From positions 1 through 51,864 of IMG/VR virus record IMGVR_UViG_3300032954_000021: a DNA stretch of 51,864 bases. The stretch is one strand, 5' to 3'. This DNA is from a virus. The position numbers were made by a program, and so were the translations under genes. Positions 11,080-44,892 of the stretch are shown here, in pieces; positions within the stretch are counted from its first letter, which is position 1; every line of letters starts with the position of its first letter. The notes under the pieces were generated by a model that had not been told where the DNA came from, did no database searches, and saw nothing but the letters and a program-made list of their open reading frames with translations.

Positions 11080-11094
11080 TTATGTTTGGCATAA
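11080..11094. promoter_or_regulatory. TTATG-N5-CATAA palindrome, copy A (between capsid and next gene)
   Basis: The core TTATG-TTTGG-CATAA is embedded in a longer inverted repeat. The arms GCGGCCGG (11071-11078) and CCGGCCGC (11096-11103) extend it to an almost perfect 14-bp stem with a 5-base loop. It lies in the 81-bp gap after the capsid gene. In the direction of transcription it is followed by ATTTTC, a weak T-run, so a terminator or processing hairpin is possible. The same core recurs in three other gaps, which favours a shared operator or promoter element. Confidence 0.7.
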
Positions 11095-26137: not shown

Positions 26138-26177
26138 CCCAGTCAACACATAGCTGCCCGTTTATAATGTGGACGCA

Positions 26178-26407: not shown

Positions 26408-26475
26408 ACAACAGGCATGCAAGCGGCGTGCCTGCCGCCGACGGCGAACATTACAAATTCTTAATGTTCGGACGG

Positions 26476-26548: not shown

Positions 26549-27091
26549 ATGACAACTGAACGCAAGCCCGTGGTCACGGTCACTCGTGACGACTCGGGCA
26601 TCTCGATTCTGGTGAACGGGGCCGGACGGCCTCCGATCGCGGTGCGTTGGTCCGCTCTCTCGGATGCGGTTCGCAAGGCCGCATTCGGATATGGCATGGA
26701 GGTGCGGCTCACGCGCGCCGCTGCCATGACGCGCGACACGAAGTCGGGCAAGGCGGCGTCGCCTCTCGACAAGTACGAGGCGATCAAGCGGCTCGCGGAC
26801 CACTATTCCAGCGGGGCCGATAGCTGGACCATGGCCAGCTCGGGCGGCGGTGGCGGGCTGTCGGCTGACACGCGCGCTCTCATCGAGGCGCTGGTCGCGG
26901 CGCTCGGCCTCGACGCAGATGTGGCCGAGGAGCAGGTGCGCGGCATGACGACCGCTGAGCGCGATGCGCTGCGCGTAGATGCGGAGATCAAGCCCTACTT
27001 GGACCTGATCTACGAAGAGCGCGCGAAGGCGGCGGGCGCGGCGACTGGCGACCTGAAGGCGAAGCTGAAGGGGCTGAGCGCGAAGGTCTAA
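26549..27091 (+). CDS. First rightward gene: paralogue of the 33271-33927 protein
   Basis: The 180-residue soluble protein starts MTTERKPVV, with GGAG shortly upstream; an upstream open frame from 26495 overlaps the promoter and is unlikely. A Gly/Ser linker occurs near residue 95. The C-terminal half (LVAALGLDADVAEEQVRG, then DAEIKPYLDLIYEERA) aligns with the 33271-33927 protein (FTGRTADEVREHIKD, DPDIKPIVERIEKEKA). Both end in a similar short tail, here TGDLKAKLKGLSAKV. As the first gene of the early unit it may be abundant. I recognise it as a common type of phage hypothetical protein but know no function. Confidence 0.8.
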   Translation: MTTERKPVVTVTRDDSGISILVNGAGRPPIAVRWSALSDAVRKAAFGYGMEVRLTRAAAMTRDTKSGKAASPLDKYEAIKRLADHYSSGADSWTMASSGGGGGLSADTRALIEALVAALGLDADVAEEQVRGMTTAERDALRVDAEIKPYLDLIYEERAKAAGAATGDLKAKLKGLSAKV

Positions 27092-27137
27092 GCCAGCGGA
27101 GCGAGGGGCGGGGACTGACACCCGCCCCAACCTCTGA

Positions 27138-27442
27138 CCACCACCACCAACCTCAACGACTGGCCACCAGCTAGCGGGGGGCCGGTTGGTCGTGGACGCA
27201 TTATGCGCTCAGTCGCCGTACCGTCAGACGCAAGCTCGTCGGCGGGCTTCTCAGAGGCGTGGGGTCAGGGGGATTATTATAATATTTTTTTATATAGAAG
27301 AACAAGAACGCGGACCTGAGCACGGGCACTCGGCCTCCCTGACGCACGGCATACTGAGCACTCGGCGACTGAGGCATAACGCGGACATGGGCGGGCGGCA
27401 CCCCCCTAGTCGGTGGCTAGTCGTTGGTGTTGGTGGTGGTGG
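27138..27442. repeat. About 305-bp imperfect palindrome centred on an AT tract (candidate origin/control site)
   Basis: Arm ends 27138-27168 and 27412-27442 are inverted copies, 28 of 31 bases matching, built on CCACCACCACCAAC...GCCACC. The symmetry continues inward. GCATTATG at 27198-27205 mirrors GGCATAAC at 27373-27380, and CTCAGTCGCCG at 27208-27218 mirrors 27363-27373. The centre, near 27290, lies in a 24-bp run of only A and T (27273-27296) inside otherwise GC-rich DNA. No gene fits here. A replication origin with an unwinding element, or a master regulatory site, is plausible. Confidence 0.75.
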
Positions 27443-27482: not shown

Positions 27483-27511
27483 TTGTTAGCTGCCGCCTAG
27501 CGTGCGATAAT
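27483..27511 (+). promoter_or_regulatory. Rightward sigma70-type promoter before the HTH gene
   Basis: TTGTTA (27483-27488) is followed after 17 bases by GATAAT (27506-27511). It lies just beyond the right arm of the large palindrome and about 43 bp before the chosen start of the HTH protein at 27554. It would drive the long run of small genes that follows. Confidence 0.6.
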
Positions 27512-27553: not shown

Positions 27554-27949
27554 ATGAGGATGGAACGCAGGAAACGGCCCGGCTCCAAGATGACTCGCGA
27601 GGACGTGATCGAAATACGCCGCCTCGCCGCCGATACAGACATGTCCTACCGAGAGATCGGCGAGATGATGAACCTCGGTACGGAGCAAGTCGGCCGCATC
27701 GTTCGCGGGGAGCAGTGGCGCGACATTGATCTGATCCCTTCGGATACTGAGGTCGAGGCGCGCATGAGGCGCGAGGCGCCGCCACTCCCGAGCGAGATCG
27801 AACGGTCGCAGGAGCGGCTGAAAGCGCTCCTCGCCGCTGAGCCGGAGCTCATTCAGACACAGGTTCAGGATAGTCCTGAGCCTCCCAACGCCGCCGGCGA
27901 CGCCGAGCGGCAGGAGACGAGCGATGACCACGACAGCAAAGCAGAATGA
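27554..27949 (+). CDS. Small HTH DNA-binding protein, candidate regulator
   Basis: The protein has 131 residues. Residues of about 12-55 form a helix-turn-helix, REDVIEIRRLAADTDMSYRE then IGEMMNLGTEQVGRIVRG, of the type found in phage regulators and in DNA-binding modules of homing nucleases. The rest is acidic and probably flexible. I chose the ATG at 27554 because GAGGA lies 4 bases upstream; an ATG at 27530 has no ribosome site. It is the only gene directly downstream of the large palindrome, so it is the first candidate to bind the TTATG/CATAA half-sites. That link is inference. Confidence 0.75.
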   Translation: MRMERRKRPGSKMTREDVIEIRRLAADTDMSYREIGEMMNLGTEQVGRIVRGEQWRDIDLIPSDTEVEARMRREAPPLPSEIERSQERLKALLAAEPELIQTQVQDSPEPPNAAGDAERQETSDDHDSKAE

Positions 27950-33270: not shown

Positions 33271-33927
33271 ATGAACGCAACAGCAGAACAGGCAGCCGGC
33301 GAAGCCGCCGCAGCTGCCCCCGCTCGCAAGAAGGCAGAGGTCGAGATCGTGGAGATGACCGATGGACGCAAGGTGTCGTTCTCGGGCAAGTCGAAGGTCT
33401 CGAAGGAGTTCCTGGTGAATGGGAAGCCCTTCGATGAGCTGACTCCCGAGGAGCAGGCCAAGGCGCACGTCGGCCATTCTGCCGTCCGCTTCGACTTCCG
33501 CAACGGCACGACTCGCACGTATCCGCTGAACACCGCGCTCGCCCTGCGCTTCGCAGGCCACGGTGCTCTGCAGAAGTACGGCGATGAGCTGGCCGGCGAG
33601 GACGCACCCGATCTCGATGACTGGGCTGCGACCACGGATCGGCTGCACGAGCGGCTGTCTGGCGGGGAGTGGACGAAGGCCCGCGTAGGCGGCGGCATGG
33701 CAGGCACCAGCGTGCTGCTCCAGGCCCTGATGGAGTTCACCGGGCGTACTGCCGACGAGGTCCGCGAGCACATCAAGGACTGGACGCCGCAGGACAAGCA
33801 GGCCATGCGCAACGATCCTGACATCAAGCCGATCGTCGAGCGCATCGAGAAGGAGAAGGCCGAGAAGGCTTCGAAGAACGTCGATACCGGCGCTCTGAAG
33901 GCCTCTCTAAAGAGTCTCGCCGCATAG
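33271..33927 (+). CDS. Abundant-type early protein, paralogue of the 26549-27091 protein
   Basis: The 218-residue soluble protein has an Ala-rich N-terminus, a central domain (SGKSKVSKEFLVNGKPFD, TYPLNTALALRFAGHGALQK) and a helical C-terminal part DPDIKPIVERIEKEKA. It ends VDTGALKASLKSLAA. Similarity to the first rightward gene covers the C-terminal half. It has its own leader, AGGAG ribosome site and a following terminator-like hairpin, so it seems to be an independent, well-expressed gene. I know such proteins from other phages without known function. Confidence 0.8.
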   Translation: MNATAEQAAGEAAAAAPARKKAEVEIVEMTDGRKVSFSGKSKVSKEFLVNGKPFDELTPEEQAKAHVGHSAVRFDFRNGTTRTYPLNTALALRFAGHGALQKYGDELAGEDAPDLDDWAATTDRLHERLSGGEWTKARVGGGMAGTSVLLQALMEFTGRTADEVREHIKDWTPQDKQAMRNDPDIKPIVERIEKEKAEKASKNVDTGALKASLKSLAA

Positions 33928-38998: not shown

Positions 38999-39037
38999 CC
39001 CCCTCTCGAGGGGGAGCCCATGTCCCCCTCTCTTTTT
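38999..39037 (+). terminator. Attenuator-like alternative hairpins before the methyltransferase gene
   Basis: CCCCCTC (38999-39005), GAGGGGG (39008-39014) and CCCCCTC (39024-39030) allow two mutually exclusive 7-bp stems. The second stem is followed by TCTTTTT (39031-39037) and would be a good intrinsic terminator; the first would prevent it. The loop of the first stem is only 2 bases, so it would have to open slightly. The element lies between the acidic-protein stop and the methyltransferase ribosome site. Confidence 0.7.
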
Positions 39038-39058
39038 CCTCAGACTCGGAGACTCGCA

Positions 39059-40375
39059 ATGCAACTCCACCTTCTCTCCGCTGACGAGATCACGGTTAAG
39101 AAGAATCGTCAGCGCCGCGAACTCGATCAGACGAAGATATTCGAGCTCGCCGCTTCGATCGGCCAAGTCGGCCTGATCCATCCTATCGTAGTTCGTTCGG
39201 TTGACGGCGAGTATACTCTCGTCGCCGGCGAACGCCGCCTCAAAGCTCTCGAGCAGCTATGGTTCCTCGGCTCCGAGGTAACCTACTCCGGGAAGGTCAT
39301 ACCCGAGGGCCAGGTCCCCTGCTCCTTCCTCGGAGAGATCGACCCGATTGATGCAGAAGAGATCGAGCTCGAAGAGAACATTCGCAGGGAAGATCTGAAC
39401 TGGAAGGAGCGCGCCGACGCCGTTGCGCGCCTCGCCGCCCTTCGGACTGCGCAGGCGAAGCGCGCCAACCTGCCCGCGCCGAGCGTCGCCGATATCGCCG
39501 AAGAGGTGAGCGGCCACCGCGAGGGCGACTACCAAGGTGACGTCCGGAAGGACATTATCCTTGGCAACGCTCTGAAAGATCCAGAGGCGGCCGCCGCCCT
39601 CGACGGCGCTACCAATCGCAACGACGCTTTCAAGAGGTTACGCCGTCATGAAGAATCCAAGAGAAATGCCGCTCTGGGGGCCTCGCTCGTACTTACCTCG
39701 GAAATGCACACTCTGCGAAAGGGCAACTGCATTCCTCTTATGCAGGAAATGCCAGCGGAGACTTTCGACGTTATTCTCTGCGACCCGCCGTACGGGGTCG
39801 GCGCAGATGAATTTTCTGACAGCGGCGGACGAACCGCTGGTGGTCATTTCTATAGCGACTCCTATGAAGAGTGGAAGCCTCTCGCCACCAGTCTTGCCGG
39901 CGAGTCCTATCGCCTCGCTAAGGGCCAAGCCCACGCATATGTATTCTGCGATATTGACCGCTTTGGAGAGCTCAAAGCGCTCTTCGCGCAGGCGGGTTGG
40001 TCGGTCTTCCGAACGCCGCTCGTCTGGGTCAAGCCAGGCGGCGTGCGCGCCCCGTGGCCTGAGATGGGACCTCAACGAAAGTACGAGATTATTCTCTTCG
40101 CAGTCAAAGGAAAGCGACCAGTAACGAGGCTCTACGGCGATGTGCTCACCTACCCGTCCGATCCTAACCTTGGCCACCCAGCGCAGAAACCTGTGGCGCT
40201 TCTCAGCGACTTACTACAGAGATCAGTCCGGCCGGGTGACACAGTGCTCGATCCGTTTTGTGGAACTGGTTCGACCTTGGTCGCCGCCCACCAGCACAAG
40301 TGCAGAGCGACAGGGATCGAGCTGAATGAGGCAGCTTACGGAATATCGCTTGTTAGAGTGAGGGAGCTCAAATGA
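39059..40375 (+). CDS. ParB-like domain fused to DNA methyltransferase
   Basis: The protein has 438 residues. Residues of about 1-150 are ParB/Sulfiredoxin-like, with ELAASIGQVGLIHPIVVRSV, TLVAGERRLKAL near 50-60 and EEIELEENIRREDLNWKERA near 100. Residues of about 225-438 form an amino-methyltransferase: DPPYG (motif IV) near 241, KPVALLSDLL and DPFCGTGSTLVAA (motif I) near 397. The motif order IV then I is the beta class, giving N6-adenine or N4-cytosine methylation. The start at 39059 has GGAG upstream; an ATG at 39020 lies inside the hairpin. It may protect phage DNA or mark it for packaging or replication. Confidence 0.88.
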   Translation: MQLHLLSADEITVKKNRQRRELDQTKIFELAASIGQVGLIHPIVVRSVDGEYTLVAGERRLKALEQLWFLGSEVTYSGKVIPEGQVPCSFLGEIDPIDAEEIELEENIRREDLNWKERADAVARLAALRTAQAKRANLPAPSVADIAEEVSGHREGDYQGDVRKDIILGNALKDPEAAAALDGATNRNDAFKRLRRHEESKRNAALGASLVLTSEMHTLRKGNCIPLMQEMPAETFDVILCDPPYGVGADEFSDSGGRTAGGHFYSDSYEEWKPLATSLAGESYRLAKGQAHAYVFCDIDRFGELKALFAQAGWSVFRTPLVWVKPGGVRAPWPEMGPQRKYEIILFAVKGKRPVTRLYGDVLTYPSDPNLGHPAQKPVALLSDLLQRSVRPGDTVLDPFCGTGSTLVAAHQHKCRATGIELNEAAYGISLVRVRELK

Positions 40376-40524: not shown

Positions 40525-40940
40525 GTGATCTACCAGCAACTGTAGTTCATATATTCAGCCGCTGTGTAAGACGCGGAGCTTGTCTTATTTGGACTGGAGC
40601 TTCTTCTCGTGGGCATGGACAGCTAACAGGTGGCGAGTATGTACACAGAGTTGTTTATGAGCAGCTGAAAGGGCCTATACCAGAAGGATTGGAAATAGGA
40701 CATACTTGTGACGAAGGGCTCTGTGTAGAACCAGAGCATTTAGAGGCTGTTACTAGACAAAAGAACGTACAGGACGCCTTCTCTAGAGGCAGATATCAGC
40801 GAGGCAGATACTCTAATGAAGATATAGTAGCTTTACGCGCTGGTAAAATAAGCTCACATGCTTTTGCTGAGAAGTATGGCTTGAGCCAGAAGACTGCTTA
40901 TAACATCAAAAAGGGACACAAAGCAAAATGGCGATCATAG
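40521..40940 (+). CDS. HNH endonuclease with C-terminal HTH, probable homing enzyme
   Basis: The 139-residue protein has an HNH_3-type core (GGEYVHRVVYEQLKGPIP, then EIGHTCDEGLCVEPEHLEAV). A C-terminal resolvase-like HTH follows (SNEDIVALRAGKISSHAFAE, KYGLSQKTAYNIKKGH) that probably sets DNA specificity. The gene is clearly AT-richer than its neighbours. It overlaps the start of the polymerase gene by 13 bp, so the polymerase is the natural homing target. An upstream open frame from 40452 is part of the membrane-protein gene. Confidence 0.87.
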   Translation: MSDLPATVVHIFSRCVRRGACLIWTGASSRGHGQLTGGEYVHRVVYEQLKGPIPEGLEIGHTCDEGLCVEPEHLEAVTRQKNVQDAFSRGRYQRGRYSNEDIVALRAGKISSHAFAEKYGLSQKTAYNIKKGHKAKWRS

Positions 40941-43474
40941 TCCCTCCAGATGGTCCTCTCAATGCCAAAGTACTCATAGTCGGAGAGGCGCCCGGCGAGA
41001 CGGAGGAGATCCGCGGCGTGCCGTTCGTAGGCCCCTCCGGTATGGAACTAAATAGAATGCTGCAGGAAGCTGGTATGTCTAGGTCAGAAGTTTTCTGTAC
41101 GAACCTCTGCCGCTCGCGCCCCCCGCGCAACGACATAGAGCTCTACATTCGCAAGTCCTCAAAGTTCACAAAGAAGGTAACGAAGGCTGACCAGAAACGG
41201 ATCGACGCCGGCATCAATCCTTATAAATTCGTCCCCCTCCGCGATATGCTGGTCGATCCGAAGGTGATGGAAGGCTTCATCGAACTGAAGAAGGAGATCG
41301 AACTTGTCAAACCTCAGATCATTATTACGGTCGGCAATGCGTCTATGTGGGCGCTCACCGGCAGGTGGGGCATCACGAAGTGGCGCGGGTCGATGCTCAC
41401 TTACAGCAGCGCTGGAAAAGATACCAAGCTCATCCCCACTTATCATCCAGCCGCCATTCTTAGACAGTGGGACTGGAGAGCTATTGGTGTGGCAGACCTA
41501 CGTCGGGCCGCCCGCTTCCGAGATGGTACTCCTTATCCGACGCGCGAACGCCGCTTTATTCTTAGACCTAATTTTGATCAGGCTACGCATACCCTTGAGA
41601 CTCTCATTAGTCGCGCTGACCTCCTCGGAGATAACGCAGTACTTCGGCTCAGCTTCGACATCGAAACTCGTGCAGGCCATATTGCGTGCGCCGGAATCTC
41701 GTGGTCTTATAGCGATGCAATCTGCATCCCTCTCATGTGCGCAGAGCGGCGAGAAGGCTATTGGCTCCTGGACGAAGAAGTACGTATCGTACAGCTCCTA
41801 CAGACGCTACTTACGCACCGGCGAGTTCGAGTAGTCGGGCAGAACATTCTGTACGACTCCCAGTACACCTGGCGCTGGTGGCATTTCGTCCCTCGCGTGG
41901 ACCAAGACACGATGATCAGCCAGCACGCCATCTTCTCCGACATGCCCAAGTCTCTCGCTTTCCAAGCGAGCATGTACGCCGACTTCTACGTATTCTGGAA
42001 AGAGGAGGGCAAGGATTGGGAGAAGAACATGCGAGAGGAGGAGCTCTGGCATTACAACTGCCTCGATTGCGTCTACACCGATGAGGTCGGCCAGGTCGAG
42101 CTGGAGACAATCCGTAGTCTCGGCCTGCAGAACGTCCACGACTTCCAGCAGAGCATGTTCTGGCCCGTCTTGCAAGCGATGCAGCGCGGCGTGAGAATCG
42201 ACCTCAAACGCCGCAACGAACTCATCATCGAAGTGAAGGGCGAGATAGCTCGCCGGCAGACCTTCATAGATAAGATCCTCGGCCATCCGCTTAACGTGGA
42301 CAGTCCGAAGCAGATGCACGCCCTGTTCTACGGCGACTTCCGCATGCCGGTTCAAATGAAGAGAGGTAAGAAAGGTGAACCATCTCGACCAACTCTGGAC
42401 GACGACGCTCTTCAGAAGCTTCGCCGTATTGAGCCTCTGCTTACTCCTCTGGTCAACTCTATCGCGGACATACGGACGCTGGGGAAGTTTCTATCTAATT
42501 TCCTCTGCCGTCCTCTTGATACTGATTCGAGGATGCGTTGCGCCTTCAACATAGGAGGATCTGAAAGTGGCAAGTCAGCACCCAAGACATATCGCCTTTC
42601 GAGTTCGGAGAACGCCTTCGGGTCTGGAACAAACCTCCAAAATATACCGTCTGAGAAATCTAAAAGCCTGGGCAAAGCAGCGGCGCGAGGAGGGTTCGAC
42701 GGTATTGGCGATCCGTATCAGTTCCCCAATATCAGAGAAATCTTTGTACCAGATCCTGGCTATACCTGGTTCGACCTTGATCTGGAAAGGGCCGACCTCT
42801 TTGTGGTATGCTGGGAAGCGGAGGACGAGCAACTCAAGTCGGCCATGCGACTCGGAGTGGATATCCATCTCCTTAACAGCTTCGTCATCACCGGCAAGGA
42901 GCCGCCGCCGCTCGAAGAGCTAGTCGAGACGCACAGCAAGTACAGAGATCATCGCGGCCCAATGAAGCTAACTCGCGAATTCGCAAAGGTATTCTGCCAT
43001 GGCACCAACTACGGCGGCGGGGCGCGCACGATGGCTGCCCATACTGGACGATCTGTTGCAGAGATTGAGAGAGCGCAGAGGATCTGGTTTGCAGCACACC
43101 CTGGAATCAAGAGGTGGCACGATCGCGTTAAGAGTCAGGTTGTTGCCCGGCGATTCGTGGAGAATCACTTCGGATACCGATGGTACATCTTTGATCGAAT
43201 TGACTCTATCATCCCAGAAGCGATCGCCTGGATTCCTCAATCCACAGTCAGCATCGTCATCAATCGAATCTGGGAACGCATCTACCGCGAGCTGCCCGAA
43301 GTCCAAGTCCTGATGCAGGTGCATGATAGTCTGCCAGGCCAGTTCCCGACCAGCCAAGCGCAGTCTTTATTGCCCCGCATTCGAGAGTGTGCGAAGATAG
43401 TCGTACCCTACGCTGATCCGTTAGTGATACCTGTGTCGATCAAGACGAGCGAAAAAAGCTGGGGGCATTGCTGA
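40928..43474 (+). CDS. Uracil-DNA glycosylase / 3'-5' exonuclease / family A DNA polymerase fusion
   Basis: The protein has 848 residues. Residues of about 10-195 form a family 4-type uracil-DNA glycosylase, with GEAPGETEEIRGVPFVGPSG at 19-38 and the second motif PTYHPAAI near 170. Residues of about 235-400 are a DnaQ-like exonuclease with SFDIETRAG and YNCLDCVYTDEV. The polymerase has motif A FDLDLERADLFVVCW near 614, motif B REFAKVFCHGTNYGGG near 682 and motif C QVHDSL near 796. In motif C the usual Glu after HD is Ser. It is the replicative polymerase, perhaps removing uracil as it copies. Confidence 0.92.
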   Translation: MAIIVPPDGPLNAKVLIVGEAPGETEEIRGVPFVGPSGMELNRMLQEAGMSRSEVFCTNLCRSRPPRNDIELYIRKSSKFTKKVTKADQKRIDAGINPYKFVPLRDMLVDPKVMEGFIELKKEIELVKPQIIITVGNASMWALTGRWGITKWRGSMLTYSSAGKDTKLIPTYHPAAILRQWDWRAIGVADLRRAARFRDGTPYPTRERRFILRPNFDQATHTLETLISRADLLGDNAVLRLSFDIETRAGHIACAGISWSYSDAICIPLMCAERREGYWLLDEEVRIVQLLQTLLTHRRVRVVGQNILYDSQYTWRWWHFVPRVDQDTMISQHAIFSDMPKSLAFQASMYADFYVFWKEEGKDWEKNMREEELWHYNCLDCVYTDEVGQVELETIRSLGLQNVHDFQQSMFWPVLQAMQRGVRIDLKRRNELIIEVKGEIARRQTFIDKILGHPLNVDSPKQMHALFYGDFRMPVQMKRGKKGEPSRPTLDDDALQKLRRIEPLLTPLVNSIADIRTLGKFLSNFLCRPLDTDSRMRCAFNIGGSESGKSAPKTYRLSSSENAFGSGTNLQNIPSEKSKSLGKAAARGGFDGIGDPYQFPNIREIFVPDPGYTWFDLDLERADLFVVCWEAEDEQLKSAMRLGVDIHLLNSFVITGKEPPPLEELVETHSKYRDHRGPMKLTREFAKVFCHGTNYGGGARTMAAHTGRSVAEIERAQRIWFAAHPGIKRWHDRVKSQVVARRFVENHFGYRWYIFDRIDSIIPEAIAWIPQSTVSIVINRIWERIYRELPEVQVLMQVHDSLPGQFPTSQAQSLLPRIRECAKIVVPYADPLVIPVSIKTSEKSWGHC

Positions 43475-43668: not shown

Positions 43669-44892
43669 ATGCCGACGAACGGAGCGGCAGGCGAGCGGAA
43701 CTTCCCGGACTGGCTCTCCGCCTACGTCCAGTACGCTGGCTTCTCTGAAGCTCCCCGACGCATGCACTATTGGTCCGGGGTCAGTGCGATCGCTGGTGCA
43801 TTGCGCCGCCATGTCTGGTTCGACATGGGCTACTTCCGCTGGTTCCCCAACTTCTACATTATTCTCGTAGCGCCGCCCGGTGTTGTATCTAAGTCCACGA
43901 CTGCCAGCATCGCCATGACTCTGCTGCGGAAGGTCCCCGACATAACCTTCGGCCCCGAAGCCGTTACGTGGCAGGCCCTCCTCGAACGCTTCGAGCAGTC
44001 TACTCAGTCCTTCCTAATCGGCGCCACCTATTACACGCAGAGCGCCATGACTATCGAGTCGGCCGAGTTCGGCAACCTGATCGACCCCTCGAACAGAGAG
44101 CAGATCGACTTCCTCGTCAACCTCTGGGATTCGAAGGTCGGCTCTTTCCAGAAAGTCACAAAAGGCTCAGGGATCAACAATGTTGAGAATCCTTACATCA
44201 ATCTCATTGCTTGCACTACTCCTGCATGGATCGCAGGGAACTTCCCCGAGTACGTCATTGGCGGAGGATTTACCTCTCGTTGTCTCTTTGTTTACGCGGA
44301 CCAGAAAGAGAAGTTCATTGCCTATCCCGCACGTCATATGCCAAAGGAGATGGGGGAAGTGCAGCACGCACTGGTCCAAGACCTCGAGCGCATGTCCGCT
44401 AAGCTCGTCGGCCCCTATATCATCAGCCCGGAGGCGGTCGAGTGGGGGGAGAAGTGGTACGCGGAGCACTGGAGCGGGAAGATGCCGGACGAGCTGGACG
44501 ACGACCGCTTCGGCGGCTATCTCGCCCGGAAGCAGACGCACGTGCATAAGACGGCCATGTGCATTGCTGCTTCCCGGCATGACGACATGGTGCTATATAG
44601 GCAGGACCTTGAGGACGCTTACGCCGCCGTGACGGAGCTGGAGAAGGACATGGTAAAGGTGTTCGCAAGGATCGGCAGGACGCAAACGTCCGTGCAGGCC
44701 GAACGCTTCATCCGCTTCGTACAGAAGCGCGGCGCCTGCACCTACGCCGAGGCCTACGCATTCATCCATTCCAGCTTTCCGAGCGCGAAGAACTTCGAAG
44801 ATATCGTCGTCGGAGCGACGAGGTCTGGCTACATCAGAATGCAGCCGGCGGGCAGCAGCTATATCTTAGAGGCAGTGAAGAAGCCAGCTTGA
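43669..44892 (+). CDS. DUF3987-like P-loop replication protein
   Basis: The protein has 407 residues. The N-terminal YWSGVSAIAGALRRHVWFDM, then FPNFYIILVAPPGVVSKST near 60-80, matches the DUF3987/primase-helicase-like P-loop proteins of phages. The P-loop is altered: Ser replaces the Gly before Lys (APPGVVSKST). The later pattern NLWDSKVGSFQKVTKGSGIN, then FTSRCLFVYADQKEKF, also fits the family. No DnaB-type helicase or primase is found elsewhere, so it may fill that role. It lies 3 bp after the small gene behind the polymerase. Confidence 0.75.
   Translation: MPTNGAAGERNFPDWLSAYVQYAGFSEAPRRMHYWSGVSAIAGALRRHVWFDMGYFRWFPNFYIILVAPPGVVSKSTTASIAMTLLRKVPDITFGPEAVTWQALLERFEQSTQSFLIGATYYTQSAMTIESAEFGNLIDPSNREQIDFLVNLWDSKVGSFQKVTKGSGINNVENPYINLIACTTPAWIAGNFPEYVIGGGFTSRCLFVYADQKEKFIAYPARHMPKEMGEVQHALVQDLERMSAKLVGPYIISPEAVEWGEKWYAEHWSGKMPDELDDDRFGGYLARKQTHVHKTAMCIAASRHDDMVLYRQDLEDAYAAVTELEKDMVKVFARIGRTQTSVQAERFIRFVQKRGACTYAEAYAFIHSSFPSAKNFEDIVVGATRSGYIRMQPAGSSYILEAVKKPA

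Follow-up and report, generated by a model that had tools for sequence, protein, structure and literature searches.

What does a long palindrome with an AT-only centre do in the gap before the early operon of a phage, and could replication of the genome begin there? The question is raised by a locus near position 27,290 of the window, by which is meant the whole stretch of DNA analysed (51,864 nucleotides of an IMG/VR virus record). The window has no DNA similarity to INPHARED phages, and no close relative was found there; the lineage is one of uncultivated tailed phages with a podovirus-like gene content. The late genes, including terL (phrog_38) and portal (phrog_1216), run leftward, while the early genes run rightward and encode an SF1 helicase, a ParB-methylase, a UDG-family-A polymerase and a DUF3987 ATPase annotated as a primase. 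The polymerase carries an N-terminal family-4 uracil-DNA glycosylase domain (40928-43474), and in the ParB-methylase a ParB N-terminal domain is fused to an N6/N4 DNA methylase (39020-40375). Among the replication-type genes of the genome are its own polymerase, the primase-like ATPase, the SF1 helicase, a Sak4-like protein and an exonuclease.

The palindrome is one example of a strongly conserved non-coding DNA element, apparently undescribed, as literature searches found no description of it. The likeliest role of this element is that of a DNA replication origin acting through DNA secondary structure in this lineage, a reading to which we give close to an even chance.

The palindrome in the window

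The preliminary description reported outer arms of 31 bp matching at 28 positions in inverted orientation, together with an exact mirror pair, TTATG at 27201-27205 and CATAA at 27375-27379. Both were borne out on re-computation, the pair being symmetric about 27290, and the symmetry proved to be longer than first described. The main features are as follows.

27138..27218, + strand: left arm of the quasi-palindrome, its outer part ACC-rich; 79% match to the right arm over 81 positions (E 1.8e-13)
27192..27207, + strand: operator half-site in the left arm, GTGGACGCATTATGCG; 15/16 to the operator copy at 26169
27273..27296, + strand: AT-only centre; on the early-gene strand it includes T7 at 27285-27291
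27363..27442, + strand: right arm of the quasi-palindrome, inverted-repeat match to the left arm
27373..27388, - strand: mirror half-site in the right arm, weaker (12/16)

The match between the arms contains small gaps and lies within a wider, weaker symmetry of 71%, ungapped, over 92 positions (27115-27206/27374-27465). The palindrome is real: among the inverted repeats of the 51.9-kb window it ranks first (BLAST E 3e-11, against 4e-4 for the runner-up), and it scores 103 where the same geometry reaches at most 61 at about 1500 other centres and at most 51 in 1500 shuffles. The folding z-score is -12.6 for the + strand and -9.2 for the - strand with RNA parameters, and -11.0 with DNA parameters. 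In the DNA fold the AT-only centre forms an unpaired apical loop enclosed by 114 pairs. This 24-bp run is the sole AT-only run of at least 16 bp in the window; it had been placed at the centre of symmetry, and it is present, though centred about 5 bp to the left of the dyad. The T-run within it is just 7 long.

The claim that the region has no gene also stands. No conserved gene spans the palindrome, since the arms are non-homologous between relatives and the open reading frames there are mechanical; an Rfam search of the region gave 0 matches, and a tRNA gene search found none.

Two operator half-sites had been noted inside the palindrome, and these are real and mirrored in the two arms. The operator, approximately TTATGYCNRRCATAA, is a dispersed palindrome found in the window at 11089, 26177, 34057 and 44907/44916, mostly in intergenic positions, and its half-sites recur in both arms; the operator was demonstrated for the window alone. 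A separate 19-bp palindrome, GGCATGCAAGCGGCGTGCC, is identical in the window (26414-26432) and in one relative (L005, 3435-3453), and lies in the divergent intergenic region of both.

The element among relatives

The first relatives were found through the helicase (L004 and L005, then L011, L012, L013 and L014). All six have a near-palindrome with a T-rich centre between the homologue of the gene on its left (gene X, described below) and the first early gene. The composition of the arms differs: it is ACC-rich in the window, CAA-rich in L004 and L011, and CCT-rich in L012 and L013, with GGT, GTT or GGA in the opposite arms. The top inverted repeats of ctMlz233 and of Microcystis phage Mel-JY34 (in the latter at 44129-44291) are counterpart elements. 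ctLwi270 and vir526 have strong palindromes at the late/early region, but without a centre of T8 or longer.

A blind survey was then made. Eight diverse primases gave an alignment too divergent to scan with, and a TerL alignment was likewise too divergent for use; an alignment of the DUF3987 primase gave 80 relatives, of which 33 near-full genomes were read. For each genome the best inverted repeat spanning 100-450 bp was picked blind to its content. In 26 of the 33, this repeat holds a T-run of 8-16 on the early-gene strand, at 0.35-0.67 of the repeat length and usually near 0.5. Three further genomes have the element by looser criteria: in G015 the T-run palindrome is the second-best inverted repeat, while in G002 (the same contig as L014) and G017 the T-run lies in a folded hairpin overlooked by the seed search. 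The remaining four (G007, G013, G018 and G022) have no clear element by the survey criteria. In most genomes there is exactly one run of T8 or longer on the early-gene strand, that of the palindrome, and none of the palindromes in the 33 genomes has an A-run as long as the T-runs.

Across the lineage, the elements are quasi-palindromes of 114-330 bp at the start of the early operon, with a central T7-16 on the early-gene strand. In some genomes the element lies farther from the automatically estimated late/early junction, an estimate crude enough to misplace the junction of the window itself. Nothing comparable was found in the unrelated or more distant controls NP1, MMDA13, MiCath, ctfzr933, EBPR3 and Tiera. 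The Jamesmcgillvirus phages PaMx41 (L195, 42480-42583) and PaP2 (L198, 42772-42875) have a 104-bp quasi-palindrome in the corresponding place with no T-tract, so that the T-tract form marks a narrower lineage. A Vibrio phage and an AT-rich Desulfofustis phage have an inverted repeat in the corresponding place with A-tracts instead of T-tracts. A check put forward with the preliminary description, that symmetry should be conserved while sequence changes, is passed across dozens of genomes, and the place by the early operon is kept.

Symmetry apparently at the level of DNA

The arms are homologous between genomes in two pairs only. All other links between palindromes consist of a short core around the T-tract, and this core also accounts for the sequence words that recur within them. 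When the 35 elements were folded with DNA parameters, the median z was -5.1 and the T-run was enclosed by 44-133 pairs; it is mostly unpaired, and forms the apical loop in most elements.

Mismatches in the arms show no bias between G·T and A·C (132:121, p 0.53). The lack of a G·T excess suggests that the symmetry is kept at the level of DNA and not of RNA. In the two alignable pairs, arm changes are mostly one-sided (20:1 and 23:3 against compensatory), with no clear excess of base-by-base compensatory change. Pairing is thus not kept base by base; rather, the arms seem to decay and then be renewed.

Genome setting

The neighbours of the palindrome in the window are listed below.

26549..27091, + strand: gene X, encoding a 180-aa protein; beside 33 of 35 elements
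27105..27128, + strand: GC-rich hairpin after gene X, GGGGCGGG/CCCGCCCC; weak, terminator-like, without a T-tract
27483..27511, + strand: sigma-70-type early promoter, TTGTTA-17-GATAAT, 41 bp to the right of the arm end
27554..27949, + strand: first gene of the early operon, encoding a small helix-turn-helix-like protein; family found downstream of 16 elements

The usual order in relatives is the gene X family, the palindrome and then an early sigma-70 promoter. Among the elements adjoined by gene X homologues, 28 have the gene directly upstream, with its 3' end toward the palindrome. A promoter with a score of at least 10 follows the palindrome in the early sense in 17 of 35 cases, against 0-1 of 35 for other positions, and no promoter signal was found upstream of the 35 palindromes on either strand. 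Terminators better than that of the window precede the palindrome in 8 of 35 relatives.

For gene X, searches of Pfam, PHROG, NCBIfam and PDB gave no convincing relative, and a single-sequence search gave no matches. Its AlphaFold model (pLDDT 82.6, pTM 0.44) has no match in the PDB at E<0.001, and five in BFVD at that threshold, all unnamed or uncharacterised. No recognised initiator was found in the genome; gene X is a neighbour of the element, but has no known family or fold match. Several genomes have a second copy of gene X farther into the early operon. In the window this paralogue (33271-33927) is 33% identical and has no Pfam or PHROG match.

Replication origin or another role

The form, conservation, strand polarity and setting of the element lead us to infer that extrusion, priming and replication could proceed as follows. 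RNA polymerase leaving the early promoter would create negative supercoiling behind it, and the AT centre may then melt. A hairpin or cruciform would be extruded from the melted centre, leaving the T-tract of the early-sense strand exposed in the single-stranded loop. From a primer made in this loop (oligo-A on a T template), DNA synthesis could start leftward, in the direction of the late genes; rightward synthesis could be primed by the early transcript. The DUF3987 ATPase annotated as a primase, the SF1 helicase and the family-A polymerase would take over after initiation. The gene X protein, which is nearly always encoded nearby, may recognise the structure.

The preliminary description had proposed an origin in the form of an unwinding element between protein-binding arms. 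The AT centre and the mirrored half-sites of the window agree with this; repeated words are not general, however, and what recurs among relatives is long intra-strand complementarity together with a strand-polar T-tract. Membership of a known origin family is not established. Firstly, an AT-rich unwinding element, as in iteron-type (lambda-like) origins, is present in the form of the 24-bp AT-only centre and the T-tracts of relatives, while iterons are lacking: no 8-mer occurs at least three times in the element of the window, and only some relatives have any. Secondly, the GC-skew profile suggested as a check went against the proposal. Averaged over 30 relatives and about 18 kb on each side, the mean GC skew is highest at the element (+0.10) and declines smoothly on both sides to about -0.06, so that the compositional switch expected of a bidirectional origin is absent. 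AT skew does flip at the element, yet gene direction flips there too. Thirdly, two features of mitochondrial OriL are present: DNA-parameter folds give a stable stem-loop on the template strand, and the loop holds a T-stretch on a fixed strand (T7-16 near the centre, early-sense). The even GC-skew peak, the abutting promoter and the T12 tract of phage Kuura discussed below are among the reasons why the origin reading is held at about one half.

The element could instead control the early promoter. As a supercoil-sensitive cruciform with an AT tract and half-sites in its arms, it might tune or insulate early transcription and part gene X from the early operon. The strong early-sense promoter that abuts the element in 17 of 35 cases, the terminators upstream of it in 8 of 35, and the arms of the window, with half-sites of an operator found elsewhere in the genome, are all in keeping with such a device. 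An operator or UP element, however, has no need of 60-170 bp arms whose sequence turns over completely; moreover, the dispersed operator is documented for the window alone, and words repeated at least three times are absent from many palindromes. We therefore consider promoter control fairly unlikely.

Another alternative places the element at the genome terminus, as a hairpin at the concatemer junction for cutting or duplicating direct terminal repeats. In T7, a hairpin has been proposed at the concatemer junction and terminal repeat. The element resembles it as a hairpin-forming palindrome, and Kuura has a related T-tract next to its terminal repeat, but the element neighbours early genes, and terL of the window is some kilobases away. 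Contig cut points do cluster upstream of the element: 4 fall within 600 bp, where 0.37 would be expected. Of the 33 contigs, however, at least 15 end in short k-mer-like overlaps of 70-127 bases and are circular assemblies, so the cut points can be assembly effects. Kuura has a published 606-bp terminal repeat (PMC9959647), and its T12 run, which belongs to the early-sense strand, is separated from the boundary of this repeat by 55 bp and precedes a TTGACA site; this makes terminus processing possible in the wider group. On the other hand, Kuura is remote (its primase is about 25% identical), and its best inverted repeat is not that of the T12 region. On balance, a terminus or packaging signal is unlikely. 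The Kuura (L017) tract lies at 43141-43152 and is flanked by GGGCAGTT/AACTGCCC repeats.

Transcription of the element into a non-coding hairpin RNA would agree with the RNA folding predictions, which are strong (z -5 to -13), but the two strands fold about equally well, the mismatches lack a G·T excess and Rfam has no match; in addition, the early promoter is on the downstream side and directed away from the element, no promoter signal is found upstream on either strand, and terminators stand upstream in some genomes. This makes a hairpin RNA very improbable. It is just as hard to credit that the quasi-palindromes are functionless by-products that template switching creates and renews in a non-coding gap, for although the fast turnover of the arms and the mostly one-sided changes in close pairs fit, mutation alone leaves unexplained the fixed place, the central T-tract on a fixed strand (often the sole run of T8 or longer), gene X and the promoter.

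Two other candidates were rejected. A protelomerase (telRL) site has no partner in the record, where no PF16684 match was found while a control search was positive. An intrinsic terminator would not have its T-tract in the loop, as here, but after the stem.

Comparison with known origins

Theta origins of the lambda type include an AT-rich stretch close to early transcription and the genes for replication. The phage element is alike in this respect, but has symmetry where lambda-type origins have iteron direct repeats. In herpes simplex virus, oriL has palindromic arms about an AT-rich spacer. The same arrangement, palindromic arms flanking an AT-rich spacer, likens the phage element to OriS, in which the arms form a hairpin during initiation (PMC12543377). 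In herpes origins, however, the arms are conserved boxes bound by a known origin-binding helicase, whereas the arm sequence of the phage element is not conserved.

Mitochondrial OriL is a precedent for a strand-specific origin with a T-stretch in its hairpin loop (PMC4256270), and the phage element likewise has a T-stretch on a fixed strand in the loop of its predicted hairpin. It is far smaller, lies on the strand exposed by strand-displacement replication and works with POLRMT (PMC4256270). The phage element differs in its 60-170 bp stem and abutting promoter, and priming in its loop is a proposal. It is tempting to go further and see here a phage origin of a new class, in which shape would be what is recognised: the arms of the long hairpin or cruciform would be unconstrained in sequence, a strand-specific T-tract loop would be the priming site, the early promoter would drive the origin and gene X would serve it, and the whole would stand as the phage counterpart of OriL; this fuller version is doubtful.

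Possible implications for phage replication

Phages of this large lineage encode their own polymerase and a primase-like ATPase, yet have no recognised initiator, and no cis-acting replication signal was found for them in the literature searched. Microcystis phage Mel-JY34 is a named phage-host system that carries the element. If the element were a terminus or promoter device instead, it would nonetheless be non-coding DNA that is strongly conserved and linked to an uncharacterised protein. If the origin reading is true, origins could be found by shape across genomes that have no alignable DNA, and the initiation of phage replication would be linked to the hairpin origins of mitochondria and herpesviruses.
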